DNA from: Plicaturopsis crispa FD-325 SS-3
Lineage: Eukaryota > Basidiomycota > Agaricomycetes > Amylocorticiales > Amylocorticiaceae
Assembly: GCA_000827205.1 (NCBI GenBank)
Contig: KN832561.1
Span: 877,446-941,445, forward strand
DNA: 64,000 bases
Direction: 5' to 3'
Part shown: positions 19,103 to 57,534 of the stretch, piece after piece
How positions within the stretch are numbered: the stretch's first letter is position 1
How the letters are laid out: each line of letters starts with the position of its first letter
Notes under the pieces: generated by a model
Seen by the model: the letters and a program-made list of their open reading frames with translations, nothing else
Told to the model about the DNA's origin: nothing
Database searches by the model: none
Translations under genes and position numbers: made by a program

Positions 19103-20847
19103 ATCCTACCGCGGATTTAGTGCAGTACAATACCCCGTGGCCGCCCGATGAATATGTCCTCCTGTTGAGGCGCGTAGGCGGGATCTACGTTAGCGACTTT
19201 GTGTGGTATGTACCGACGCGCGTTTACAATAGGTCGCCGTTATGTGGACGTTAGGGGGAAATGGGTAGCCCGAGGTGTATTCCGAGGCGTGCTCGATTGC
19301 GGGTAACCAGGAAACAAGATTGAGAACCAGACGCGCCACGGTAGTCCTGTCTACTTGTGCGAGAGATGGAGGTATAATGTCTGCGCCAGCCGGCGACTTG
19401 TAAAGATCCCAGAGTTAGCACTTGGGCACGCTGCCGAGCGCCGTGCGCGTCGTTGTTCCAGGTAGGATATGTAGCACAGCGACCAAGAAAGTGGTGGTAG
19501 AGGAGAAAGAAACAACGGGCGCTGTTGTCTTTGCTTTTCTTGCGAAACGTTGCTTTCGTTGGACGCCAAAGGACAAGCCTTCCCGGGTCAGATAACGTAA
19601 GCGTGTACAGCCGATCTCCGAAAATCCCTTGCGATTGGCTGCGATTCGTGCTTGCTCTTTACTGAACGCCTGGCGAATGGCTACGACGTTATGTCGCGCG
19701 CAGATTTTGCTGTAAGGTATGGATATATTCACGAATGACCTTCGAGGGACATTCACCGCTCACCTAGAAATCGAGTCCAGCGGGCGCATCCTAGCGCAAA
19801 GTAATGCATGAAAGGGCATCTACGGGCGTCGGGCGCACCGATGGTAGCATCAAGTAGCATATGTGCACGGGCGATATCGGTGCCGGTCGCTCAACGGTCG
19901 CTCATCGACCAGATGGTATTAGAAAGGATCACAAGTAAGTACCGCTCATCATTGTTCTTGATCATCGATGATATCCATTCAGTGGGTGTGTCACTTCTGG
20001 TGCAGTGTGGATCGCTGGTTGCTACTGACACCAAGTGATCACCAGGTAATCACCGAACGTGCCATACATACTTACAGTACTTATTGTTACGGATTTAAGC
20101 CGATCGTCCGCCAACGAACTGCGTGATTTAAGACGTTCACAGAGACGAGCCGTCAAATGCGCGCAGCAGCCAGCGCCAGCCATCGATGGCCTGATGGGCA
20201 ACCGATCGGCGGCACCGGTTCGACTCGTCATGCGCGTCGGCCGATAAGATCGTAATGACGCTTCTTCGCGATACTGAACGCTTTCGCTTATCCGCCGGCC
20301 TGTACTTAGCACAGCCGGGCAACGTGCGATGCTCAATGGCATTGCATGCCCGTTATTCAGCTTCCTGGTTACTATTGTTTGCCTCCACTTCTGCTCCGCA
20401 CTTTTAGCTGATTCACCAAATCCCATCTTTCAACTCGCAACGCTCGAGGATTGTAAGCCCAGTGTCGAGCTCTGTGACTCGTAAGTCCCGCGGATAATTG
20501 TGGCTGATGATTTCTGCTTTCTAGACGTTCTGATACGATCTACTAATGTCGTCCAAACAACCTTATCTATGACGACTTCAGGCTGAAGGCCGATAACACA
20601 AGATGCACAGTTTTTACAGTTTACGGTAAGCATTTTCACTCTCCAGCTGTTCGAAGTTGACCGTTCAAACTCGTTAGAATTGCCTGATTTTTTGTCTGAT
20701 GTGACTAGGCTGTACAGGAGTGACACTCCACAGCCGATTTAGCGGCGTTCGCCGCTACAAGCTGTACGTTCTGACTTCCTCCCTCTTTCTCCTCTCATAC
20801 TTACCTGCGACAGCGTCACAGAACCCCACTGCTTACCACTGAGACAC
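19103..20847. other. Long intergenic region upstream of STE11
   Basis: About 1.7 kb with no recognisable gene. The only sizeable open frames (for example about 113 codons on the minus strand near 19415-19756) lack homology signals and plausible splicing. Short palindromic or repeated words occur near 19890-20060 but form no clear element. It likely holds the STE11 promoter and that of the next plus-strand gene. Confidence 0.5.
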
Positions 20848-22416
20848 ATGTCTAATAGGCCTAAAAAGGGAACGGCACCACTGCCGCCACTCGACCGGTC
20901 GAGCATCAAGAGTGTACAGCAGTACATCCAGCAGTACAAGAAATCACGGCAAGACCGCAAGGAGACCCTTGGTGGTGAAGGTACGTCAGAATCGCACCAA
21001 ACGTGAAGTCTATGCCATCGCTTACGCAGAGTTAAGGATATCTTGAACATCTCCAGATAATGCTGCAAGCTCTGCAAGCAGAAAAAGGTAGAACACAATC
21101 CGAAGTGGATTCTCAGAATCTGACTACATTTATACCTCTCTTTCAGATACTCAACGAACTGTAGTTCCTCCCGAAAACACCGGAGAATCGGGAAATTCAG
21201 GTAAGCAGCATCATCTCTGTCGTAAAATCTTACTCTGCTAAGCACCACGAAAATCCTACAGGCAGTCGCAACCCAGAGGAGATGGATATCGACACCGAGC
21301 ACGATGATGGTGTAGACCCCTTGACAGACGATCGTGAGTGTCAATTGCGACTGAAGATGACAAGGCGGCTGATCGGTCTTTCATAGGCAACGACATCGAG
21401 CGATTCCTTGATGGACTCGGACTGACCCAGGTCAATAGGTTCTTGACCGCCTTTAGCAAAAATGGTGGCCAGTACGGTAACCCCGGCCCAAACGACGCCG
21501 AACTCCTCGCGACGTGGACTCGCATCCAGACGACGGCGCGGAAATTCAGCAACAGTCAGGAGGGAGTTCCATTCAGCAGCGTATCCTGGCCCCTCCCGAA
21601 TTCTCCAACAGCCGTGCAAAGGCCAGACATCGAGGCCACATACCGTTGGTTCTCGCACTGCCTGCAACCAGCGGAAGAGCTAGACGATGGGGCACCGGAA
21701 ACTAGCGGACGCAAAAGTACGTACCATGGCCATACAAACAGTACAGTTGCGGCTACTTACGGTATAGCATGTGCAGAAAAAGACGTGATCGCTACCATCT
21801 ACGACTACGAGACTCGTAAAATGACCAACGTGACACGAGCAATGGTTCTAGAGGCCCGCATGAATCCTGCCGCCTGGCCTGGGTTTATCGAGGGAGGTGT
21901 CGAAACGGCAAAGGTCGTTTTCAACAACAGGGTACGTCGTGAGTTGTTCAGTATGGAACGCGAAGCAAACTTCACCTCTCTATCTAGTCTAGCAATGCGA
22001 AATGCCTCACATGCACCCTCTCGGGTCGAGGCACCTCGGCACCAAAGAGCGGAAAGACGGAACGCGGTGAAGGCCCCGGCTTCCTGACGTGCAAATGCCC
22101 AGAGTCTACAGCTCTTACGGAGCTGTGGATGGTGAAGGCTACTGCTGCAAACGCAGGCACCGCCGCACTTCTCAATTCCCAGAAAATCAAAGATGTCAAG
22201 TTCAATCCGGTGAACCTGAGAGTCGTCGAGGCCGCTATCTCTTTGGTCTCAGGATTGACACCGGAGACGCTGTTCCGACCTGAGGAGTCGCGCCTCAAGA
22301 CGACTATTCAGTGGGCGTTGGCCCGCCTTGCTAGCCATCATGTGTCTGACCCGTCGGAGAAGAAGAAGATTGATGATGTGCGGCGACTTTTCGAGGAGAC
22401 TGCAATGCGTGGGTAA
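20848..22416 (+). CDS. Hypothetical protein with a small Cys cluster
   Basis: About seven exons with good splice signals. The start MSNRPKKGTAPLPPLDRSS is followed by a basic Gln-rich helix (VQQYIQQYKKSRQDRKE), an acidic patch (EEMDIDTEHDD) and a conserved-looking globular stretch (NDIERFLDGLGLTQVNRFL, WTRIQTTARKF). The last exon has four cysteines in CLTC...TCKC spacing, which could bind zinc, then a helical C-terminus (LKTTIQWALARLASHHV). I do not recognise the family. It lies 276 bp upstream of the RTC4-like gene in the same orientation, so the two could be functionally linked or, less likely, be parts of one gene. Confidence 0.6.
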
Positions 22417-22692
22417 TAGGCTCACAGTGGCGGACTCGGATGCACGTCGAATGGTAGAGTTCGGAGGCATATTGTAGCGTATGGAAGCTTGTTTTTCTCT
22501 TGTATTAAATGGTACATTTATCTCACTTTTAACGAGGCCCCAAGACGGCTGATTCATGACCTGAGGTTGCAGCCTGCCAGTGAGTGGTCGATATCTGATG
22601 GATTCGAGATTGAGGCCTTGGCCTGATAAGGCGACGCGAACACTCTTGCTCGCTCACACACCTGTGTATCTTGACTATTGTTGGCTGTATTC

Positions 22693-23966
22693 ATGGCTAG
22701 CTGGGAGGATGGCCCGTACAACACTGCACGACGAAATAATTATCGAAAGAAAAAGAGAAACTCGCAATTTCCACCACTCCCCCCTTTATCTGAGCCAGCC
22801 TCGTACGCCGCCAGTACTGACCACGATGTTTCGACAACTGGAAGGTCAGCGGGAGAGACGAAATTCTCCGTCGAGGAGCATGACCTTGATCTGGGAGAGG
22901 AGGATGAGGACATAATGAGTAGGCGGCATGAAATCTAAGTTTTTTTGGCATACACACTCACCCTGCAATACTAATTCGCTTAGGCCCTTCCGTCAACCCC
23001 TCGACGCTCTGCCCATTCTGCGATAGACCGCTCCCCGAAGCACCTACGACGGAGCTTCTTGAACTTATTCGTGTTGCACGAGGGCAGTCGTACCCTGATG
23101 TTCGTCCAACGAATCCCCTCGGACGTAGGGCACCAATGCTCCTGTTCTCCGCAGTTTGTCACCGGCATGATTTCGAAACACGGTTACTGCCTCGGGGGAA
23201 GAAGGAAGGCTGGCCGGAAAAGATTGACTGGGGGAGGATGAAATCCAGAATTATCAAGATGCACGCACCATTATTGGAATTGCTCGCAGACCCGGGGACA
23301 CCACTCGACGAGATTGTCGAAGGGGAAACTGACAGTAATGGAGATGCAGAAGGCTCGTCTGCAGAGGACAGGGACGAGGACGAAGGACTCGGCAACAGCA
23401 AAGGTCCCCGAGACCGATGTGTGTTCTGGAGGGATGTGAAGAAGCAAATAATGCAGCAAGGAAGTCGCGCTGTCACAGGGGCAATGGGTCAGTTGTCGTT
23501 GTTTTCGAACATACAACCCGGCTAGTAAGATCTCTTACTACTTTATCTCGCATCCTGGAAAATAAAACTGACATGCTTCTTTGGACCGTTCAGTTATGGG
23601 GAACGCGGGGCGACAATCATCTACCAGATGCTGGTCAATCTGTTTCCACCAACATCTATGAATCCTGAACTCACCAGGCCGCTCACACCTGCCGACTTCG
23701 TCCGCCTGGTTTTGACCCCCGAAGTTGCACTGAACCTTATCATGGAAGATATGGGATGCGGGAGACGGACAGCATTGAAAACACTTCGAGACAGCTCGGT
23801 GTATGGTGTCGCAATGTTTCCCGAGATTGACGGTGATGACGACGACGATGTTGGTCAGGCGATTGTGAAGGAGCGAGCGCGTAAGCGGAGGCAAGAACTA
23901 GCGGATGAGGACCAGGGCAGCATAGACAAGGACGAGCCAGTGAAGAGCAAGCAGCGAGTACAGTAG
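22693..23966 (+). CDS. RTC4-like domain protein
   Basis: Three exons. The ATG at 22693 begins MASWEDGPYNTARRNNYRKK, a basic disordered region. The first intron joins at AT...SVNPSTLCPFCDRPLPEAP, a conserved CPFC-type knuckle at the head of the domain. The domain core includes LLFSAVCHRHDFETRLLP, IDWGRMKSRI, YYGERGATIIYQMLVNLFP, PLTPADFVRLVLTPEVALN, LIMEDMG and LRDSSVYGVAMFP. This matches the RTC4-like domain named after yeast 'restriction of telomere capping 4'. The yeast function is known only genetically, and agaricomycetes carry expanded families whose roles are unknown. The C-terminus is Asp- and Lys/Arg-rich, consistent with a nuclear protein. It is the last clear gene before the repeat-rich island. 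Confidence 0.8.
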
Positions 23967-24249
23967 ACAAAGTAGAAATAAAGGGTTGGGTGTGCTGAGC
24001 AGTGAGCGTTAAGCGTTGAGCTTGGACGAAGTCTACTTGATAAGATAAGATGACTGCGTGAGAGAACGACTTAGAACGACAAGATTTTGACGACTGCCCT
24101 CGTACTTACCATGATCAGGCTGTTGCAAACTCCCTACCTTGCTCGTGTGCACTTTCTGTGTGCCTCTTCCCTCCTCGCGCGCTCGTATCGCACCTTCTGC
24201 CTTTGCGTGCTCCAGGCGTAGGCGCGTCCCTTCTCCTAATATTCATACA

Positions 24250-24942
24250 ATGTTCGCACTTCCTAACATTGCCCCGCAGGTCTTGAGCAGCAGGATCGTG
24301 CGCTCTCTCGCGAGCCATGGAGGCTGCATCATATCTGCCGGCGTGCACAACCTGGCTGCCGCTGTGGGACTCCAGACGCTCGCCGTGCAGGCCATCAGGG
24401 AAAGGTGTAAATTGTGAGGCTTGCGTCGGCTGACACAGCCAACAACAATGATGCTGCGCAGGTTGCGATCGCGAGCGCCAGTGTGTGCTGGAGGTACGTC
24501 AAGCTCTATGGTTCATTTATGTCATCTATGAGACGCTAAGAATTGATATCTAGACTAGTCAATATTCCCAGACTTGATGGTTTGTAGGTATTCGCGTGAC
24601 ACCGACGGCGTCGCGCCGTTTCATGGGGGCGACAACAGCAAGACCGACGTCACCGCCAACAACAGTAATACCGTCGACGCTGACAGCAAGAATACTGTCG
24701 ACGCTAATGACAAGACTACATCCGCAAAACTCGTCCATCCTCACATGCGCAGGAGCACGAGTGGACGGCGACTATATTGGTTAGCAGCGGACCGTTGCTT
24801 TCACTTCTTGCCTTATTTTCTGCGCTTTTTTGCTTCCGTTTTTGGTGCCGTTGAGGTGCGCTTGCTCGACGGCATTTGTCCGTCTATCTTATCATCTGCT
24901 TCACTGATGTTTCCTTTTCACAGTTCTTTGGCTGAAGTGTAA
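24250..24942 (+). CDS. Possible small hypothetical gene
   Basis: An ATG at 24250 opens MFALPNIAPQVLSSRIV, a weakly hydrophobic stretch. Frame-consistent splices can join it to SNNNDAAQVAIASAS and then to YSRDTDGVAPFHGGDN plus an Asn/Asp/Thr repeat segment, ending at 24942. The second splice uses good sites, but the first intron would be only about 32 nt, shorter than the others in this window. No family is recognised. It may be a decayed gene at the edge of the repeat island or no gene at all. Confidence 0.25.
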
Positions 24943-25229
24943 AATGTTGGCACCTCAGTCCGGATGTCTGTGTTTGACATCCTTGTTTGAGGTGTATAAT
25001 TTCTACGGTGCGCGCAAAGTGTAGCTTTAGCACAATCAATATCTGATGTGTTTTTCTTACAGTTCCGCGTCAGACTGTCAGGCGTGCACTTCTGATACCC
25101 AAAACTCGAAGTGCGCGTTTCTTACTCTTGAATTAATGATGCGCGATACTGACTTTTGCGTCTGGAGTGTTGATATTTTACAGTCTGCGTCAAGCTGCGC
25201 GGGCTTGACAATTCGCATTGATCCGTATT

Positions 25230-26490
25230 GGTGTCCACTATTTACAGTTCCTGCCAAGTGTAGCGGTGTGACACTTAGATCTCGGGTGTAAGACCTACAC
25301 ACTTGACACTGATGCAAGGGAATCACACTTCGTGCGGCCATGCTATAATCTGACAGTAAGCACATTGTATTGTATTCTTTTGACTGTATTCTCACTGATG
25401 CTCAACTCTGACAGCCTTTCTTCACCAAGTCGTGCAAACTTACAGGCTGGTGAGTACAGTGGCGGTCTCCGAGTCTGTACGGCGTCTGCTCCGCTTTCGT
25501 CAAATAATAACAGCACGTTCGCCGCGTTTACAAGTTTTTTTGAAATATATATTGGACCGTTTCCTTTTGAACTGAAGCATTCCTTTGGCTTACGATGGCA
25601 AGAAACATGCGCAAAAAAGAGACCAGCTCGATCGACTTTAAACCTGCATTGATCGGAATCGGAACTTCGCTCAGCGTCGTCGTCCTCCGTGGTCTCTCAT
25701 CTTTTAACCCTAGTGCTCCGCATACGCAAACCACGATCATCTTACCATTCGCGTGAAGTGCCGCGCGATCGATTTGACAGTGGGCACATCCAGGACGCCG
25801 CCCAGGCCCGGGCCGCAGGGCATCCATTGGCTAACGTGCACATGGATTGCGAGACTCACGACGCAATCCTCGTAGTATGGATGGGGAGGGATCTTGGATG
25901 TAATCCTGAGATAGGTAAGTACTGCACCTGCATAATACGTGGGCATTCCGTAGAGAGTCGCACGGAGCTCGCTAGAAACAGCCAACGCGGTGTCGAAAAC
26001 CCTGCAGGCTCATGCGGGCGTATTCGACGCAGTGTGGTATTGTGACACGGCGGGCTCTTGTGTTGTCTACCGAGAACTTACCGACACTTCTCCAGGGATG
26101 AGTGCAGCTATCCGAGCATGAATGGTGGCCTTCAATCGGCGTCGATCTTGCTGTCCCGTCTGGCGTCAGAGTGCTCCGCTCCGCGACGACACTGTTTTGC
26201 ACCCAATCACCGCACCCAAGTTCAGTACTCGTCGCACATGCTATGGACCGCGACAACGTGCAAGCCGCCAAGGAAGCCGCCTCCTTCAGCGCCCGCCCGT
26301 TCAGCGACGACGCGGACCCATGGTCGCACCGCACTCACTCCGCCTATGGCCACGGCGGGTACCATGACACTGCGTATATAAACGACCACCGGCGGCCCGC
26401 GGGACCAGCCGTACACGGACACGAGCCGCGGGAAGCACGCAAACTGGCTCGTCGAGTGCGACTGCGCACAGACTAGGTAAGAGGCCTTGA
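25230..26490 (+). repeat. Tandem segmental duplication, copy A
   Basis: Matches copy B (26990-28885) in the same order and orientation. Shared blocks include CTGATGC..CAACTCTGACAG, TCTGTACGGCGTCT/TCTATACGGCGTCT, GTAAGAAACATGC-type starts, GCGTGAAGTGCCGCGCGAT and GCACTCACTCCGCCTATGG. Open frames inside include MARNMRKKETSSIDFKPAL with a hydrophobic helix, SGHIQDAAQARAAGHPLANV and a His/Tyr/Gly-rich C-terminal piece (HSAYGHGGYHDTAY). The copies keep different stretches open, which looks like a duplicated gene that has decayed in both. Function unknown. Confidence 0.65.
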
Positions 26491-26989
26491 AAAACTCGAG
26501 GTGAGTGGTTCTTACTCTCAAATTGATGATAATACTGATTATCTCGCAAACCCTCCGCCGTCTCCGGCCGACGAGACAGGCAGTGTCGACGAAAGGAACA
26601 ACAGCGGCAGGCCGATGACCGGGACTGCGAGCCAGGTCACAAACCTCATCACGAGCATCAAGACCCCACAATCCACGACCAGCAAGGCAAAGGGCGAGGT
26701 TCCCTTGCCCCTTCCCGGCGTATTTCCCGCCGCCTGGAGCCCCGCAACGCAGCGTGCATCCTCGCCGAACAACGGAAGGCACGCTGACTATGCCAACAAT
26801 GTGCACTTCGAGCGCGGCTTCTCGCCCATGATCGCATACAGTAGGTGACCGCTTTCTGACTGCACAGTTGCTTACAGGTTCGTTCTCCTTGCTTGCCATC
26901 CAATCGGTATGTGTAGGTGCGCATACCGTCCCTCGTCCACTCTGCGCCGTCATTCTATCTCACTGACTTCTCACATATCTGGACTGATG

Positions 26990-28885
26990 TTCATCACTTA
27001 CAGTTGCTGCAAAGTGTTTTGATTTGACACTTCAATCTCGAGTGTCAAACTTATGCGCTCGACAGTGATGCAAGAAAATTACACTTGTCGTGACGGTGTT
27101 AGGATCTGACGGTAGGTTGTTACCTTGTACTGTTTTGACGGTATCCTTGCTGATGCACAACTCTGACAGGAACTCTCAAGTCGTGCAATTTACTGATTGA
27201 GAGGCGACGGTCGCTGCACGCCGACGTCTCTATACGGCGTCTTTGCCCATGCCCATCTCCTCCCCTCCAAAATTATCGCGTGTAATCACGGCAGCTTCGC
27301 CGTGTTCAATATTACTTTATTGTATTCATCTTAATATTTCCTTGCATGCTGGCGCATACCTTGAGCTTACAATGGTAAGAAACATGCATGAAAAATGCGA
27401 CGGCGCCAACGAGCATAAGCCTGCAGTAAACTCCATTTGTCGGAATCGGGACTTTGCCGACTTTGCGTTGAGCGCAAGTTCAGCCAGTCGATTATTACTG
27501 AGTTACTCTCCTCTGAGGCCTGACGTCTATCTCTTCGTCAATCTTACCATCCGCGTGAAGTGCCGCGCGATTTAGATGACAGCGGGCCCGCTTCTATACA
27601 GGGCGCTGCACAGACCAGAGACCGCGGGGCTTTATCGTGCCAGACAGGTCCCCTGGTCTGCCAATGTGCACACGGGTTACGAGACTTGCGACACGCAATT
27701 CTTGCAGTACGTATGGGACGGAATCGTGGATTTCGTTTCGATATAGGTGAGTATTGCGCCGGCTATGATACTTGGACAAGCCAGGATGGGGAGTCGTGCC
27801 AAGCTCGCCAGACGCAGCCTACGCGACTTCGAGAAACCTGCAGGTCCATGCCTGGACCGCGGGCGTACTCGAAGCAGCGTAGGCTTGTGACGCGGCGAGC
27901 TCTTGCGCTCTCTACCGCGGACTGACCGATGTTTTCACCAGTATCTATGCCACTCGCGGACAGTACTGGCATGCCCAAGTCTCTGCGCAGTTTTGCGTCG
28001 GGCCTGGCGCTGTCAGTCGTCGTGTCTGCAAAGGCAGATGTCTCCCTGGACAGGCGCGCACGAGGTCAGCCATGCCTCGCGCTCGTCGCAGCCCAGCACG
28101 TCGTCTCACGGAGCCCCATGCGGGTGTGGAAGACGCGGGTCCTCCATCGTCTCCCTCCCTCTTTCCTAGCCCTCCCGACGCGCCATTTCTGCTATCCCTG
28201 CATTGCCGCGGGGAATACCGGTGGCGCTCCGACCTGCGTCCTTTCCGCCCACCCAGGTGTGTCCCGACTAGCTGCTATCCCGATCACAAGTCGCAATCTT
28301 CTCACAGAAGTCGACAAAATGCGGCCTTGTGTGCCCCACTGCCTCCTCGCGTACGCAGAGCGTTTTGGCGTCGATCGCGCCAACTTGAATATGACTACAA
28401 GAGCTGTCCCACCCAGCACAACGAGCACAACCCCGAGCACAAAGCGGCTTTCAGCACAGGTATACCTGCGGAGCGGAGGAGTCGCTGTGTGCAGTGTATG
28501 TGTCATTTCCCAACTGCCTATTCCTCATAGCTTACACGATATTTACGCACACAGGTCTCTTCAAAGCAAAGGCGCCGTCACAGGCACACTCACTGTAAAC
28601 GGCCCCATTCGCCTCGCCATCGTGCTCCTCACTGTCGCCAGACACCAGCGCCGCATGCAAGTGTTTTACCGCAACGTTGTGCAAGCCGCCGAGGAAGCTG
28701 CTGTCTCTAGTACCCACCCCTTCAACGACAACGCGGACCCGTAATCGCACCGCACTCACTCCGCCTATGGCCACGGCGGTTACCAGGACACCGCGTTACG
28801 CGAACGATCACCAGCCGTACACGGACACGAGCCACGGGAAGCACGCGAGCTGGCTCGTCGAGTGCGAATGCGCACGTACATGGGA
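26990..28885 (+). repeat. Tandem segmental duplication, copy B
   Basis: Second copy of the segment at 25230-26490. It is about 600 bp longer, mainly because of extra sequence between about 28010 and 28600 that has no counterpart in copy A. A 271-codon frame (27929-28744) runs through the extra sequence and into the shared QAAEEAA / NDNADP block, then stops where copy A stays open. The shared HGKHASWLVECECART stretch is in a different frame from the block before it, so the reading frame has slipped since duplication. Divergence between copies is considerable, implying an old event. Confidence 0.6.
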
Positions 28886-29395
28886 GGAAGCCCGCAATCT
28901 ATTGCAGAAACATAACACGACGTTCGCACAGTCATGAGACTGACTCGGATGGGCTCGTGTCTGACCGCTACATTTTCAGATTCTCCCCGCACGCCCACCG
29001 CATTCCACACCGTTACGGGGTCAGGATTTCGTCGGGCACCGCTGCCATTTCAGCCCTACTGGGTATAGGTTTTTTCTTGCAGAGCTGAAGCTTTTTATTT
29101 GCCAAAGATTAAGAGAAATCTACTTGTAGGATGAACTAGCATGTATGTCTTCTGGAAATATTCAATGTGTGTTTGCGTGCAGTTGACGAGCTCAGGGCAC
29201 GGAGACGCACGGCGGCACTGTACGGTGTCAGTCATCAGCGCGATTTGACCGGGAGAGCGCTGGATGTCACTTTTGACGCCCAAGGGCAGTTTGGCTGTGT
29301 TTTGTTGGATTCCTCGCCACTTATTTAAATTGTGCATGCAAAAGGTTTCGAAACGTCCCGTTTTTTACCCCCACCTACGCGCCCGCAAGTCTACG

Positions 29396-30440
29396 GTATG
29401 TCCCACACCCAGCCCACTTTCCTCTCTCCTGAGTCGCTCCCGCCACTGCACACTCGCTCGGTCAGGTGGACTCAGCCTCTGGGCGTAGCCATGCCCGTAG
29501 CCCCGAGTACCTTGATCGCCGTGTGTGGAGCTCGGGAGCCGTTCAACGCGTTCGACGCGTCTTTTCCTCGCAATTTCTGCACATATGTTATGGAAACGCG
29601 GTACTAACATTATCCTAAACCAGGACCACTATCAAGGACTACTTGTGTACGCGCTTCCGCGCATCCTGAATCTTCGCGACCACCTGTGTGCCCATAGTAC
29701 AATCCCTACGGTACGTCCCAGATCCATCCCACTCTTCCTCGCACGCCGTCCTCGCGACCGCACACTGGTTTGGTTGAGTGAAAGCGGCCTCGGGGCGTAG
29801 CCATGCCCGTAGCCTCAATCAACTTCATCGCCGTGTGTCGAGCTTGGGCGACGCGTTCTACGCGTTTTTTTTCTCTTGTGCGGGGAGCAAAGCGCTAACA
29901 CTACCTCCTGAACCAGGCTCGTCTGTGAGGCCACGCGCGTACGCGACGCAGGGAGAACGGATCGCAGGGTTAGGGTTACCCCGACTACGGTAAGCCCTAC
30001 AGCCTTGTTTCACCAGTTCACCACGGCTGCACAACCTCGACTAAGTGAAACATGCCTCTGGGCGTAGCCATGCCCGTAGCACCGCGTAGCTTAGTCGACG
30101 TGAGCGCTGTTGTTTGGCGCGCTTTTCAACGCGTTTTTCTATTCCGCTTTTTGCCTATACATCACGTAGGCTCATGACTAACATTCTATCTTGAATCAGA
30201 ATCAGCAAAACTTACGAAAGGGTGCGGAACGGCGTGCGACGGTGGACCGTGCCCCAGTAACAGGCAAGTCTACCGTCTCATCTCTTGAGTTGCCCGCGTC
30301 CTTCCTTTTGCTGCTGGGCGAGCGCGTACTCAGGGCTTAGCCAAGCCCGCGACGTGCGCCTTACCTACCATGGAGGCTCCGGCGTTTTCATTCGCGTCGT
30401 CAGGTTTTTTCAACAAAGTTACTGACTGCCATCGTCACAG
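29396..30440 (+). repeat. Four-copy tandem array of intron-like repeats
   Basis: Four head-to-tail units share the core GGGCGTAGCCATGCCCGTAG at 29481, 29793 and 30060, with a diverged form at 30333. Spacing is 312, 267 and 273 bp. Each unit begins with a donor-like site (ACG|GTATGT, ACG|GTACGT, ACG|GTAAGC, CAG|GCAAGT). Each ends about 180-230 bp later with a branch-like CTAAC and a CAG acceptor-like site (near 29623, 29917, 30199, 30440). Between them are 60-90-bp exon-like stretches with no shared protein frame. One spacer contains a short TTAGGGTTA word. The array ends 66 bp before the dioxygenase ATG. Confidence 0.7.
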
Positions 30441-30506
30441 ACCTTTTGTATGCTTGATGCACCACCGTCCTACTAGTATACGGAAAAACACGAGACAGAC
30501 ATCGTC

Positions 30507-32098
30507 ATGAAGGTGCGCCCTACCTAGATTCGAGCATCCATCGTTGGTGCATGCTCACTTTACATGCCAACAGACGCGCTCCGGGGCGCGATATCAGATG
30601 CGCGAAGACTTCGACGTCTTGCGCACAAACCGTTTGATTGCCCCACTGCTTGCCGCCGCATTTGCCACTGAAGAAGCCCGTCATATCACGGGGGAGGAGG
30701 ACTGCGAAGGCCACGACATCGAGACGGTTCTGGACAATCACCATACCCATCCACGCTCGCCAAGTCCAACTCCGCATACCTCGGTCACAGCATCTGACCA
30801 TGCATCCGGAAATTATGCCACACTCTCCAGGCGACGTCGCCGGGCAAAAGCCGCTGGCAAGCTTCCACGGACAACATATCCAGCACCTCGTTCGAGTCTT
30901 CTCAACAAGCGTGCGGCACCGGATTCCTTGGAAACAAATCTCAGCACCACAGAGCTTCCAGCGGCACGAGGCGGGTATCTTGGAAAGCGCTTGGATAGTG
31001 GTACGAGAGCTGCCGAGGTCGACGAGCTGTGTGCACAGGGGTTTGTTTACGAGGAATGGGATGGCCTGTAAGTGTCAATTGTCTAATGATGGCCTCACAT
31101 ACTTATGTCGCACATCGCTTCCAGCACTCCACGTGTTCTTCTCGACGATGAAGGCAGAATATTTGCTGTTCTAGTTGGGCAGCCCAAGGATCCCCGGTGG
31201 GCAGGAGAGTGCCAAGCTGCCGCCAATTTGATGGAGATTACACAAAAGCAATGCCGTCTGAGTAAAAAGCAGAAGGTTCATCGACGTGGAAATTTTTCCT
31301 GCCTGTCTGTGGGTGTATCGCACGGCGGGGGGCAAAAGGTATGTCTCAGCTTCTCGCTACTTTTCTCTGAACCTCACGCATGTTCTTTACACCAGGCGCC
31401 GGGAAATCTTCGCCACAACAAGACCAACAAGAAGCAGCTCGATATTCTGCTCGCTTCTCCTTCCATACGTCGCATAGCTGGATTTGGCTCAAGTACGTGC
31501 ATCCTTGTCCTTGATTCAACCTTATTAATCTGTATATACAGGTGTCTTTGCACATTACTTCCCCAAGCTGTACGCAAATTACGCACAAACCCTCGAGGCC
31601 CTCTTCGAGCACCACCCTCGCCTTCACCGCATTTTTCGCAATAGCATCTTCCCAGCGTGCACCTTCAACCTGGGCCCCGATACGGTCTGCCTTCGCCATA
31701 CCGACCACGGCAACAAGGCGAATGGCATCTGTCATATACACGCCCTCGGCAACTACAATCCAAAGACCGGCGGACACATCATCCTATACACCATAAAACG
31801 TATTATCGAATTTCCTCCCGCCTCCTCAATCCTCATCCCGTCGGCCACCGTCGAACACGGCAACATTCCCGTGCAGCCCCACGAGAAAAGGTTCTCATTC
31901 ACGCAATACGCCGCCGGGGGACTTTTTCGGTGGGTGCGATACGGGTTCCGCACGGCGGATGCACTCGAGGAATCACACGACGATGAGCTGAAGGCGGCAG
32001 TTAGGCGAGAGTTGGACACCAACTGGCAACGGGCCTTGGGTCTTTACTCTAAGGTAGATGATCTGCCAGCTGACCGTGCTCAAGTATTCGGTAACTAG
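30507..32098 (+). CDS. TET/JBP-family 2OG-Fe(II) dioxygenase (putative DNA base oxidase)
   Basis: Five exons (30507-30512, 30574-31067, 31125-31338, 31396-31492, 31542-32098) give 455 residues with no break. The first coding exon is just ATG-AAG. After a basic, low-complexity N-terminal third comes the fungal-type oxygenase core: APGNLRHNKTNKKQLDILL, RIAGFGSSVFAHYFPKLY, FRNSIFPACTFNLGP, then the iron ligands H323-x-D325 (LRHTDHGN) and H376 (VEHGN). R387 (EKRFSFTQY) is the likely 2-oxoglutarate-binding arginine. AAGGLFRWVRYGF closes the domain. TET/JBP enzymes oxidise 5-methylcytosine or thymine in DNA; basidiomycete families are expanded and often lie near transposons. Family membership is my recognition of the pattern, not a search result. 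Substrate and activity are inferred. It converges with the recombinase gene downstream. Confidence 0.75.
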
Positions 32099-32621
32099 AT
32101 GTACAGCTAGGAATTTGCTAGTATATTGTCGGGGCCAGGAACTCCTTACTTATTTTACTTTCGCATAATACATCTTGTTTCTTTTCCTCGCAGTTAAATG
32201 CATTGTGTAGCTGACAGCAACACCGGTGTGACCTGAAGAGACATCGGGAAAAAATAGCTGCGCATCGATGTGGTATATAGGCCGATAGTAGGATGAGTCG
32301 GAAGGCAGACAAGACTTGATGCAAGATAATGGAACAGGTCCTGAGATAAATTTTTCTTAAAGTTTTGCCTAAATTTATGGGACTATGGAGCATATTCACC
32401 GTAGCGGGCCAACATATTTGCTGTGAATTTAGTAACTCTCGCTGGTGGGGGGTGAGCGCAAAAATTCATACACCGTTAAGTTGGACACGGGGATTTTGAC
32501 ACTTCAATGACCAAAATGTGCGCAGCCTTAGGAGTCGCGCGCATAATGAATCATGCCCCAAGTTGCGCGTTCAAGGTCCCATACCATAGTAATAACATCC
32601 AAGCATACAAAACTACATATA
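32099..32621. other. Convergent 3' region between dioxygenase and recombinase genes
   Basis: About 520 A/T-rich bases between the two stop codons. It should hold both 3' untranslated regions. No terminal repeat, hairpin or further gene was recognised, so if the two genes belong to one element this is its interior and not its end. Confidence 0.5.
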
Positions 32622-34880
32622 CTAGTTCCTGCGATAGCCCCGCGCCTGCCTCCCCTTTGTATCACCCCGACGCTTGCGAGCCTCGCGTACCGCCTTCACC
32701 AACTTTGTATAGCTTCGACGTAGCCCAGGGTACTCCTTCTCAAACACTGTGAAATCGGAATGACAACAAACCTCGAATTCCTCGCAGACAGCCTTGATCA
32801 TGCTGAATTTCTGCGCCTCCGAGACATAGTCCGCAGGCGAAAACGTTGCATGCCACGATTTCAGCGGCACGGTAAGACCCTTGTCCACATCGCCGAAATT
32901 CCAATACCTAAGGGCATCGTCGAGGCTTTTCGTCGTTGGTATGCGGGGGACGCGAGGCTCCGGAGGAGTCGGAGAGCTATGGCGGTGATAACTTGGGGTA
33001 GGAGATGAAGGGCAGTGTTCGTGCCACATCTCGAGGTCGAATGCATCTTGATACAATATGGTCGGTGCTGCTCTCGGAGGACTGGAGACAGCTGCAGCCG
33101 GAGCGTTCCGCAAATCTACGCTCGCAGATGAGGACAGCCATACACAGATCATGCTGACGGTAAATACTCACGTTCTGCATTTGGCATAATGCCGCATTGC
33201 TCTACACGGGCAATCGTTTCCTCCAGTTGACGAAGAATCACGTCTTTGAAAGCAGCGAGATCAGCCTTCAAAATCACCGCGGAGGGGTCTTGTACGCCCA
33301 TGAACGTCTCGTGTCGATCGGAAGCGCGATCAGCCATTAGGATGTCACCAAAGCCTTCCTCGTAAGCCATCAGCTCATCTAGCAAGTAACGCATAATTGT
33401 ATCAATCTGTTAACAGGATGATTAGCAGGACACTCAGTCGAGGATAGCGTATCTCAATGGCACTCACACGTTCATTTGACGACCACCCGCCCCACCATTT
33501 CACCGCCTTCAGACTCCATTTTCGAGCGGCCCACATGAATCGATACTGTGCCCCGCCGCGCCGGAAACAGTGCGTTGTGAATTTCCCGTTCCGACCGTTC
33601 ATCACGCCCGAGCGTTGGATGATGTCGTCCATAAGGTTTTCGAAACCTGATCGACTTGTTGCTTCGCCGAATTTGAGCTGGCCGGTCGACGCGACGGCAG
33701 GAAAGATGTAGTCGTGATCTGCGAGTGGACGCTGTAAGAGTAACTGAAGATGGTCAAGCCACTGTCCCAAATGCAGATTGCAGTCGATTTCCGGGTGTTC
33801 GCGGTCGGGAGGGATCCAGTAGTGTTGAGCTAGCAGAAATTTAGTTAACATGCGGTTGGGATTAATTTGACACACCACGTACATTTGTTAGGGTCTTTGT
33901 TGGTCTTGCGGAAGCCGAGCCTGATATCGGTATACTCGCACCCTGTCAAGCTGACCTGATTTCTCCTCACGTCCTTATGCTGTAGATTGATGAGCTCATC
34001 GTTGCTGTAAATTCAATCCTGGTATTAGAAATGCACTTTTAGATGAAGTAAATGCCGTACCGCGTCCACAGACAGAAGGCAGTTGTTGCGAACGCCTTGA
34101 AGTACAGCCGCTTTGTCAACGGCATCTCCGACACACATTGGGGGCTGTCGAGATAGTCCATGATGACCTTGAGATCTTGCGGAAGCATCGGAAGGGCCTG
34201 AGTCGTAGTCGAAGTGCGGTTGTCTCGATTCTTGAGAGACTCGTAATACGCCTTGTATTTACCCTCGAAAACTGGGATTCCTTCCCATTTCTTGGTGTAC
34301 TCGTTGTAGCGCCAGTAATCACCCTGACAGCCATGCACCCTGTCGTCAAATTGAATTAATTAGCATGACATCTATACTCTGTAAGAATCACTGCGTACCT
34401 CTCGAAATAATCCTTGAACGCAGAGCGTAAGCCTTCTGCTGTTCGATACGAGTGTCCTTGGTGATCACATTTCAAGGCAGTCAGTAGTCGCAAGACGGTG
34501 GGTGTATGCTCGCCAATGATGTCCAGTGCATCTGCGAATGCGCTGCGCTCCTCCGACGCCGTGCCTTCGTCATCCGCCACCTGGTCCCTGCCCTCCTCGA
34601 CCCATCCCTTAAGCCACTTTTTCCCAGCCTTCACGTAGTTGGCATATGCTTGTGTGGTGCTGGACGCCTTGTACCACTGGTCCGTGGTGACACGGCTGTG
34701 ATCGAGCAAGCTCGAGGCCGAAGGGTCGTCCTCGTGCTCTGGAGCCGAAGTGGGGGCAGATTTCTTGCGAGGCGACTTACGAGGCGAAGTAGATGCCTTG
34801 GGTGCCGTCGCCTGAGGACGCGTGGACGCGGTTTTCTTCTTTGTCGGTGATTTCTTTGCGCGAGGCGGGGAGGGTGCCAT
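32622..34880 (-). CDS. Crypton-type tyrosine recombinase with GCR1_C-like DNA-binding tail
   Basis: Six exons, complement(32622-33115, 33172-33406, 33468-33829, 33883-34004, 34061-34339, 34399-34880), give 657 residues with no break. The N-terminus is Lys/Pro/Ser-rich (KKSPTKKK, SPRKSPRKK). A SAM-like core-binding region follows (QAYANYVKAGKKWLKGW). The catalytic domain shows R254 in WTRNDELINLQ, the H381-x-x-R384 pair in THCFRRGGAQ, the WWGGW motif at 406-410 and the candidate nucleophile Y422 in IDTIMRYLLDE. Residues about 545-655 (SLDDALRYWNFGDVDKGL, FEKEYPGLRRSYTKLVK) resemble the GCR1_C domain found in Crypton transposases. The ATG at 34880 was chosen; the frame stays open upstream to 35123. 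The gene looks active or recently active. Confidence 0.82.
32622..34880 (-). mobile_element. Crypton-like DNA transposon core (boundaries unknown)
   Basis: The recombinase has the domain pair typical of Cryptons, DNA transposons that move by tyrosine-recombinase chemistry without terminal inverted repeats. Cryptons leave only very short direct repeats, so the ends cannot be fixed from one copy. The listed span covers only the coding part. The whole element may reach about 35.2 kb on the right and could extend left to include the dioxygenase and the repeat arrays. A domesticated recombinase gene is the alternative. Confidence 0.5.
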
Positions 34881-36124
34881 GTTTTTGAAAGGGACGCGGA
34901 CGCGGACAGACTCAAGACAAAGCGTAGATTGCGGGCGGTGGACACAGGCCGTGCGCGACCTACGCTTGATCATGAGCGCGGTCGAAATGTCAACGCATAC
35001 GAGTTTACAACGAAATGTAAGAAACAAGCAGGAAGATAAGATCGAAAGCAAGCGTGAGAATCGCAGCAGTTCACCGGACGCGCGCGTTGATGAACGTCTT
35101 AAATCTAACAGTTCGGGTCTCACTAAATTACATTCAAGTAGGGCCTACATACTTATAGAACCCAGTAAGTATAGACAGGGCCGGTCAATGTACTTATCCC
35201 GCGAAAAGGACGTACTTTGCGCATACACTGACAGTTCCACGGTGGCGACCAGTCGCCTGCGCATGCCGGTGCATGCCGGTGCCGTGAACTTGTAATCGGC
35301 CGCGAACTGTCAACACGCCGGAGATCGACTAGCGACACATCCGGGGGCGACGTGGCACTTCTAGTTTTTCATCACGCCCTCCCTTATCGTGTCTTATCGC
35401 AACGCGGTCTTCAGGACGGTGGCACCTATTCCCGAACACGAAACTTCGTGTCGTTGAAGTTGACCAGGGAATATATTGCTCTTGTCGCGACATTTTACCA
35501 TGCAAAGGTCATGCGCTGCTGTTGACCGGTGCTGGTCCAGATGCCGTGTACTATGTACGCACGTCCTTGTTCCTTCCTTGTTCCCGTTCCACCGGGGTCG
35601 GGCGTTTCTGCACGGACCCGGGACCAAGCATGGAGCCGATCTCGGCAAAGTTGTTATGAATATCGCTGAAGTTGAAATCGCAGAAAGTAATCATGCTAAG
35701 CTGCACAAAAATCGTCGCGGTGGGCTCGAAATACGCGTAGAAAACGCTGCTGGCAGTAGATGCAGGTCTCCGGAGGTCTTTGCTAGGGTATTTTCTAGTT
35801 CAAGTCAAGTTGAAGGGACGCAAATGAGGGGTGTACCTGAATTCTCACGCGGTGATAGGTCGTAGATAATTAATCCCCTGCCTAGACCAGTGCCATTGCA
35901 CGAGGCAACCAACGCGCCGGCGACGGTTTCTTGGTCAACGTTACAGTCGTTCCTTTTCTCTTTACTTCCATCTTCCTCGTCTGTATTTCTTCGACTTCCC
36001 CCTTACCCCCTGCTAATACGGGTTGTTCGGTGGTAAAGTATTTCTTTCGTTTTTCGTTCACCATCCCTCGCTATTCGCATCCAACACCTTTCCCGCTCGA
36101 GTGCGCCCGCTTTCGCACCTCGCA
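34881..36124. other. Divergent region between recombinase and glucan synthase
   Basis: About 1.24 kb separating two divergently transcribed genes. The left part is likely the recombinase promoter. A short perfect inverted repeat lies at 35149-35172. The last 190 bases (about 35935-36120) are pyrimidine-rich and probably form the glucan synthase promoter or 5' leader. Open frames here show no conserved features. Confidence 0.5.
35149..35172. repeat. Short perfect inverted repeat upstream of the recombinase
   Basis: ATACTTA at 35149-35155 is mirrored by TAAGTAT at 35166-35172, with a 10-bp spacer. It sits about 270 bp upstream of the recombinase start codon. The layout (two 7-bp arms, short centre) resembles a recombinase core site, but such short palindromes also arise by chance. 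Confidence 0.3.
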
Positions 36125-57364: not shown

Positions 57365-57534
57365 GCGCTCAGGCCCGTGCACAGCGTAGCTCACCAATAC
57401 ACCTCTTGCTCGCTGCCTCGTTCACTTTGCTATCACACTTCCAGGTTCGTAGAGTCGTTGGTTTACAGTGATATCTAGCTGAGTTGTGCACCCCAGATTC
57501 CCTTCATAGAACTCCCATTTGATCTATAAACGCA

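Follow-up and report, generated by a model that had tools for sequence, protein, structure and literature searches.

The recombinase gene of a Starship lies first at one end of the element and reads inward. Starships of the Pezizomycotina join this tyrosine recombinase to cargo genes and have direct, sometimes inverted, repeats at their ends (PMC12134995), and there is a claim of Starships of 42–606 kb from a basidiomycete, Tremella fuciformis (PMC13066641). CryptonF elements also have a tyrosine recombinase, with a proposed circular intermediate and short direct repeats, and Cryptons are described as having no inverted repeats (PMC3212892). TET/JBP dioxygenase genes are found on 11 fungal transposon lineages of the DDE or HUH type, among them KDZ, Plavaka, EnSpm and Helitron, with transfer between superfamilies (PMC12730594, 2025). 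Here we analyse a 64,000-nucleotide stretch of the Plicaturopsis crispa genome (the window) and describe within it a 15-kb unit, at positions 20078–35151, which is probably one copy of a cargo-carrying mobile element moved by its own tyrosine recombinase.

A 2014 paper reportedly linked TET/JBP genes to KDZ, and the original prediction for this locus, made from the letters of the window, took KDZ to be their known transposon partner; given the range of lineages listed above, this was too narrow. The unit resembles the TET/JBP-carrying transposons in that a 2-oxoglutarate- and Fe(II)-dependent (2OG-Fe(II)) dioxygenase is tied to a transposon, and differs from them in carrying a tyrosine recombinase where theirs are DDE or HUH enzymes (PMC12730594). 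The words Crypton, recombinase and Starship are absent from the main text of that paper, and no recombinase element with such a dioxygenase was among the literature matches listed, subscription literature lying mostly outside the search.

The layout is like that of a small Starship, with the recombinase at one end and pointing inward (minus strand; ATG at 34880, 271 bp inside the right end at 35151), accompanied by accessory cargo in the form of gene A, an RTC4-like gene and the dioxygenase gene. It differs from a Starship in having no DUF3435 match, in its small size and in its host, seemingly a basidiomycete. The likeness to CryptonF lies in the tyrosine recombinase, the circular intermediate proposed and, tentatively, short direct repeats, whereas the missing GCR1_C domain, a 25-bp subterminal inverted motif and the three extra genes set the unit apart. 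Because there is no DUF3435 it is not filed as a Starship, and because there is no GCR1_C it is not filed as a CryptonF; by these sequence tests it is neither, and the two family names used in the original prediction, Crypton-type and Starship, are not supported. Falling outside both known sequence families, the unit is best read as a Starship-like recombinase element that carries cargo, with a 2OG-Fe(II) dioxygenase of KDZ type among its genes.

Copies, ends and recombinase of the unit

The genome comprises 33.2 Mb in 49 contigs; the window comes from contig C8, which is 1.75 Mb long. A genome search with a 1-kb probe from the island returned a second match on contig C13, and in a comparison of the first 50 kb of C13 with the window, positions 20078–35151 aligned to C13 26003–9522 on the minus strand. 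The alignment has gaps in its middle, both of its edges are sharp with no similarity beyond either, and the flanks of the two copies are unrelated to each other. The unit measures 15,074 bp in the window, where we assign it to the minus strand after the recombinase at its right end, and 16,482 bp on C13; probes from its left and right ends match these two places only. These borders replace the predicted ones (24250..35200), the true left edge lying 4.2 kb further to the left.

When the outer 150 bp of each end are compared, exact inverted repeats reach at most 15 bp in both copies, at offsets 47 and 46, a length that was reached in 0 of 1000 shuffles per copy. This 15-bp repeat sits within a 25-bp motif with 22 fixed positions, found 37 bp inside the left end (20115–20139, plus strand) and 36 bp inside the right end (35091–35115, minus strand). 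When up to three mismatches are allowed, this motif occurs four times in 33.2 Mb, and these occurrences are the four ends, two per copy and inverted relative to each other; one mismatch to the motif is present at the right end of the C13 copy. The reversed pattern, used as a control, gave 0 and 0 occurrences on the two strands of the whole genome. No Helitron-type ends were seen on inspection by eye. A 10-bp repeat at the window junctions, TACATACTTA, was considered as a target duplication and rejected, being without a counterpart in the C13 copy.

Because there is a second copy, with sharp ends and an inverted motif specific to those ends, we read the unit as mobile and infer that it has moved, in keeping with the prediction of a single mobile unit that joins a recombinase and a dioxygenase. 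The prediction would have been undone had these two genes never been adjacent elsewhere; they are adjacent in both copies.

The recombinase gene (32622–34880, minus strand) has six exons and encodes 657 residues; like all gene models here, its splice model was built by hand, without transcripts. The catalytic set of the tyrosine recombinase superfamily, R-K-HxxR-H/W-Y, could be located as motifs at R254, K287 or K290, H381 and R384 (HxxR, 381–384), W406/W407 and Y422, which we take to have the corresponding catalytic roles. Phage_integrase (PF00589) matches with an expectation value (E) of 0.083 and 13.1 bits, below the Pfam cut-off of 27.1, and a sequence search of the PDB gave one chance-level match (E 1.4). 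Its matches in the genome search are the two element copies and two weak relatives on C6 and C28 (E 1.8e-5 and 6.8e-5), which have the HxxR-W-Y part in common with the recombinase. The weak relatives (L060:3913-4041 and L061:3974-4150) carry a THSFRRGGCQ motif, and the one on C28 has a Plavaka transposase (E 3.3e-18) at a distance of a few kb.

Pfam found no DUF3435 (PF11917) in the recombinase protein. DUF3435 was also missing from the whole genome at E≤1, as it was from 14 control genomes, so that this silence cannot by itself establish absence. GCR1_C likewise has no Pfam match in the recombinase, and its three matches in the genome all lie outside the element. A GCR1_C-like nature of the C-terminus was considered and dropped after a profile comparison with the three host GCR1_C proteins, based on few sequences, gave a probability of 0.1. 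Among viral contigs, no relative of either the recombinase exon or the dioxygenase family was confirmed.

The dioxygenase and its KDZ-linked relatives

The dioxygenase gene (30507–32098, plus strand; five exons, 455 residues) lies tail to tail with the recombinase gene, their 3' ends 523 bp apart. Both genes are intact as predicted, with open reading frames in both copies. The family has at least 14 further loci in the genome. Our alignment of 14 proteins holds the two element copies and 12 paralogs, leaving out a paralog at C2:452252 (a near-duplicate of the one on C3) and a weak match on C7. The 2OG-Fe(II) triad HxD...H is invariant in all 14 rows, and the arginine is present in at least 90%; in the window protein these residues are H323, D325, H376 and R387.

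By these sequence comparisons the enzyme lies outside the canonical Tet_JBP family (PF12851), which matches at six other places in the genome, five of them above the cut-off, and neither in the element nor at any locus of the dioxygenase family. The five host Tet_JBP proteins (the weak sixth match, C3:782608, was excluded) have H-x-D followed by G or S at H+5 and D at H+11, the layout of CcTET and of the AG type (PMC12730594). At those places, which correspond to Gly331 and Asp337 of CcTET, all 14 rows of the dioxygenase family have an invariant N and C, and the HxD of the element enzyme also differs from the HxE of the PE type (PMC12730594).

A distant relationship to TET/JBP is suggested by a comparison of the family profile with the five host Tet_JBP proteins (E 8.7e-5, probability 60), which spans 115 columns with the triad in register; the reversed control gave 0.2. 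Several results count against such kinship. Without the two most divergent rows the match falls to a probability of 21 (E 0.0011), and the profile was compared with Tet_JBP alone among 2OG-Fe(II) families. At a Pfam threshold of E≤10, Tet_JBP is touched by 6 of the 14 family members (best 6.1e-4) and 2OG-FeII_Oxy_3 by 5 (best 2.7e-4); the window enzyme itself matches neither. A PDB search with the profile gave six matches, all at chance level (E 0.1–1). A distant kinship with TET/JBP is therefore plausible, not proven, and the predicted DNA dioxygenase stands in the same way: plausible in function, and outside canonical Tet_JBP with distant similarity only.

The genomic setting of the paralogs tells more than the profile scores. 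Thirteen paralog loci were read by eye on their downstream side, to about 1.5 kb. At four of them a CxC2 domain, annotated as 'associated with KDZ transposases', follows on the same strand (Pfam E 2e-40 or better), and at a fifth, on C24, there is a similar downstream exon without a Pfam match on its own. Five dioxygenase relatives (C5:1154096, C9:1221137, C10:1261115, C26:29589 and C24:89004; L017, L018, L021, L022 and L019) thus stand directly upstream of KDZ-type genes. They form a second KDZ-linked 2OG-Fe(II) family beside the canonical Tet_JBP genes of the same genome. The element dioxygenase is 49–52% identical to these five enzymes and 22–46% identical to the other seven aligned, and it groups with the KDZ-linked enzymes against the rest with branch support of 85/93 in a tree that includes two long rows, and of 96/94 in a second tree from which the long-branched C2:5523 and C9:1247142 were left out. 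Given this grouping, and since TET/JBP dioxygenases are known to be carried by transposons of the KDZ type (PMC12730594), it appears that the element and KDZ transposons have shared this enzyme.

Downstream of some relatives with no noticed KDZ neighbour (L016, L020, L023 and L024) there are three or four similar open reading frames with a KESHRAACAKYYLK-like start, and another downstream frame is common to the relatives on C3 and C2 (L025 and L026).

The most serious alternative concerns the substrate: the dioxygenase could be an ordinary host-derived oxygenase taken up as cargo, and not a DNA enzyme. Among family members the 2OG-FeII_Oxy_3 scores equal those of Tet_JBP; the sole 2OG-Fe(II) enzyme among the six chance-level PDB matches is a PKHD-type hydroxylase (E 1); and no KDZ-like neighbour was noticed downstream at 8 of the 13 paralog loci, as read by eye with their open reading frames outside the Pfam scan. 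Against this stand the grouping with the KDZ-linked enzymes in both trees and a ratio of nonsynonymous to synonymous divergence (dN/dS) between the copies of 0.09. We regard a host oxygenase as a possible, if less probable, origin, and a DNA substrate as plausible.

Mosaic copies, movement and surroundings

Four genes of the unit can be read through in both copies, uninterrupted by stops or frame-breaking gaps: those for the recombinase, the dioxygenase, the RTC4-like protein and gene A. Gene A (20848–22413, plus strand; 433 codons, six exons) belongs to no recognised family, has no Pfam match (with a query protein one residue short) and matches nowhere in the genome beyond the two element copies. 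The RTC4-like gene (22693–23966, plus strand; PF14474, E 7.5e-25) encodes 379 residues in a splice model of three exons; the three gaps in its alignment between the copies are all multiples of three. Its paralogs are a clear one on C10, with 48–52% identity, and a weak one on C3. We considered and rejected a third element at the C10 gene (C10:580109), the gene there being longer and having no recombinase or gene A match and no end motif. The distant RTC4-like gene on C3 (C3:1130074-1130829, L068) adjoins a transposase-looking open reading frame without a Pfam match at E≤0.01.

Divergence between the copies was calculated with C13 exons obtained by mapping the window gene models, which limits how the following values can be read: gene A, dS 0.061 and dN 0.015 (Fisher p for dN<dS, 8.3e-5); RTC4, dS 1.317 and dN 0.193 (p 1.5e-42); dioxygenase, dS 0.230 and dN 0.020 (p 1.4e-25); recombinase, dS 0.088 and dN 0.007 (p 2.8e-16). 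At synonymous sites RTC4 has diverged about 15 times as much as the recombinase (p 3e-53). Nucleotide identity drops from 99% to 65% near 22.33 kb, window positions 22330–29250 marking an abrupt change in identity, and the two end parts match well where much of the middle does not. Because dS ranges from 0.06 to 1.3 across the genes, the element copies are mosaics. Either an exchange of cargo between element lineages or gene conversion that keeps the ends alike may be the source.

Some observations weigh against a unit moved by its own recombinase. Neither Pfam nor the PDB gave a significant match to the recombinase, whose class is assigned from motifs. The candidate core, which we mark tentatively, is a 7-bp direct repeat exact between 20078–20084 and 35150–35156 (both plus strand) in the window copy; in the C13 copy the exact repeat is just 5 bp long and its register differs. 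As the junction repeats are short and out of register between copies, the crossover core is not fixed. An empty site was not seen within the genome, the right flank of the window copy being single-copy, and the genome holds only two copies, both diverged, so that no recent jump is shown.

The unit might be mobile and yet be moved in trans by another enzyme, with the recombinase as passenger cargo. In favour of this, inverted repeats are commoner on DDE elements and are reported to be absent from Cryptons. We think it unlikely, since no other transposase was recognised among the scanned gene products and the open reading frames of the middle, the two ends, at their outermost bases, are complementary at two positions only, and dN is lower for the recombinase than for the other three genes. 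Alternatively, nothing moves as a unit, and the two copies arose by segmental duplication, for example in a subtelomeric region, of DNA in which a recombinase gene lies by chance. The C13 copy does lie 9.5 kb from its contig end, and the low number and divergence of the copies would fit such an event. This we judge improbable: the inverted motifs stand at matching distance from both edges and nowhere else, the first 3 kb of C13 contain no doubled TTAGGG or CCCTAA, and the window copy lies about 0.9 Mb inside its 1.75-Mb contig. A relic of a tyrosine recombinase retrotransposon (DIRS or Ngaro), which could be entertained because Ngaro elements are present in Agaricomycotina (PMC3783388), is very improbable: the scanned gene products and middle open reading frames include neither a reverse transcriptase nor an RNase H, and the comparison of the ends showed no long repeats.

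The middle of the unit (24100–30500, no strand assigned) has no recognised gene, and its five open reading frames of at least 130 residues have no Pfam match at E≤0.1. The large tandem duplication predicted here is real as an old direct duplication and wrong as a clean tandem: its segments (families D2–D7, D9 and D11; 30–147 nt, 70–87% identical) are dispersed, with start-to-start spacings of 1.39–2.42 kb. Of the intron-like repeat array there remain, upstream of the dioxygenase (29441–30120, plus strand), three degenerate units, each about 100 nt long, the second and third 77% and 61% identical to the first at spacings of 312 and 267 nt; Tandem Repeats Finder listed a single short array only.

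Both insertions are intergenic, as judged from open reading frames. The left neighbour in the window has a SAM domain (E 1.2e-14), and its match to a Byr2 Ras-binding domain falls slightly short of the Pfam cut-off (26.6 versus 27 bits); the right neighbour has a Glyco_transf_5 domain (E 8.7e-16), and for it we keep the predicted name AGS1. Of the core genes proposed as borders, the RTC4-like gene on the left lies inside the unit; the suggested empty site, joining RTC4-like to AGS1, accordingly names the wrong left gene in place of the SAM/Byr2-like one. An ABC_tran match above the cut-off and a TMD0_ABC match below it suggest that the gene beside the C13 copy is an ABC transporter. Outside the element the window holds further direct duplications, at 57399–57849/58427–58906 and 67–201/216–352 (75% and 84% identical).

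Proposed mechanism and significance

The anatomy of the unit suggests that the recombinase would bind the subterminal inverted motifs and cut near the ends, and that the unit would be excised as a circle and inserted at a short matching core between genes. Judging from its family, its setting and the selection on it, the dioxygenase may remove or alter a silencing mark on the element; it would oxidise a methylated base, most likely 5-methylcytosine in DNA, and the element would thereby stay expressible or mobile. Roles as cargo or helpers would fall to the RTC4-like protein and gene A. At a guess, gene A, conserved together with the ends, is a possible helper and the RTC4-like protein is variable cargo.

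We put forward tentatively that the unit belongs to a new basidiomycete lineage of cargo-carrying tyrosine-recombinase elements that share a base-oxidising enzyme with KDZ transposons, such that one anti-silencing module serves both DDE and tyrosine recombinase chemistries and the remaining cargo is swapped between elements. Since one genome contains two copies whose genes are open and whose ends are defined, direct tests of excision, insertion and local methylation are possible. If true, the proposal would place a small, Starship-like carrier of cargo outside the Ascomycota, and it would suggest that mobile DNA of any cutting chemistry gains from losing its DNA methylation.

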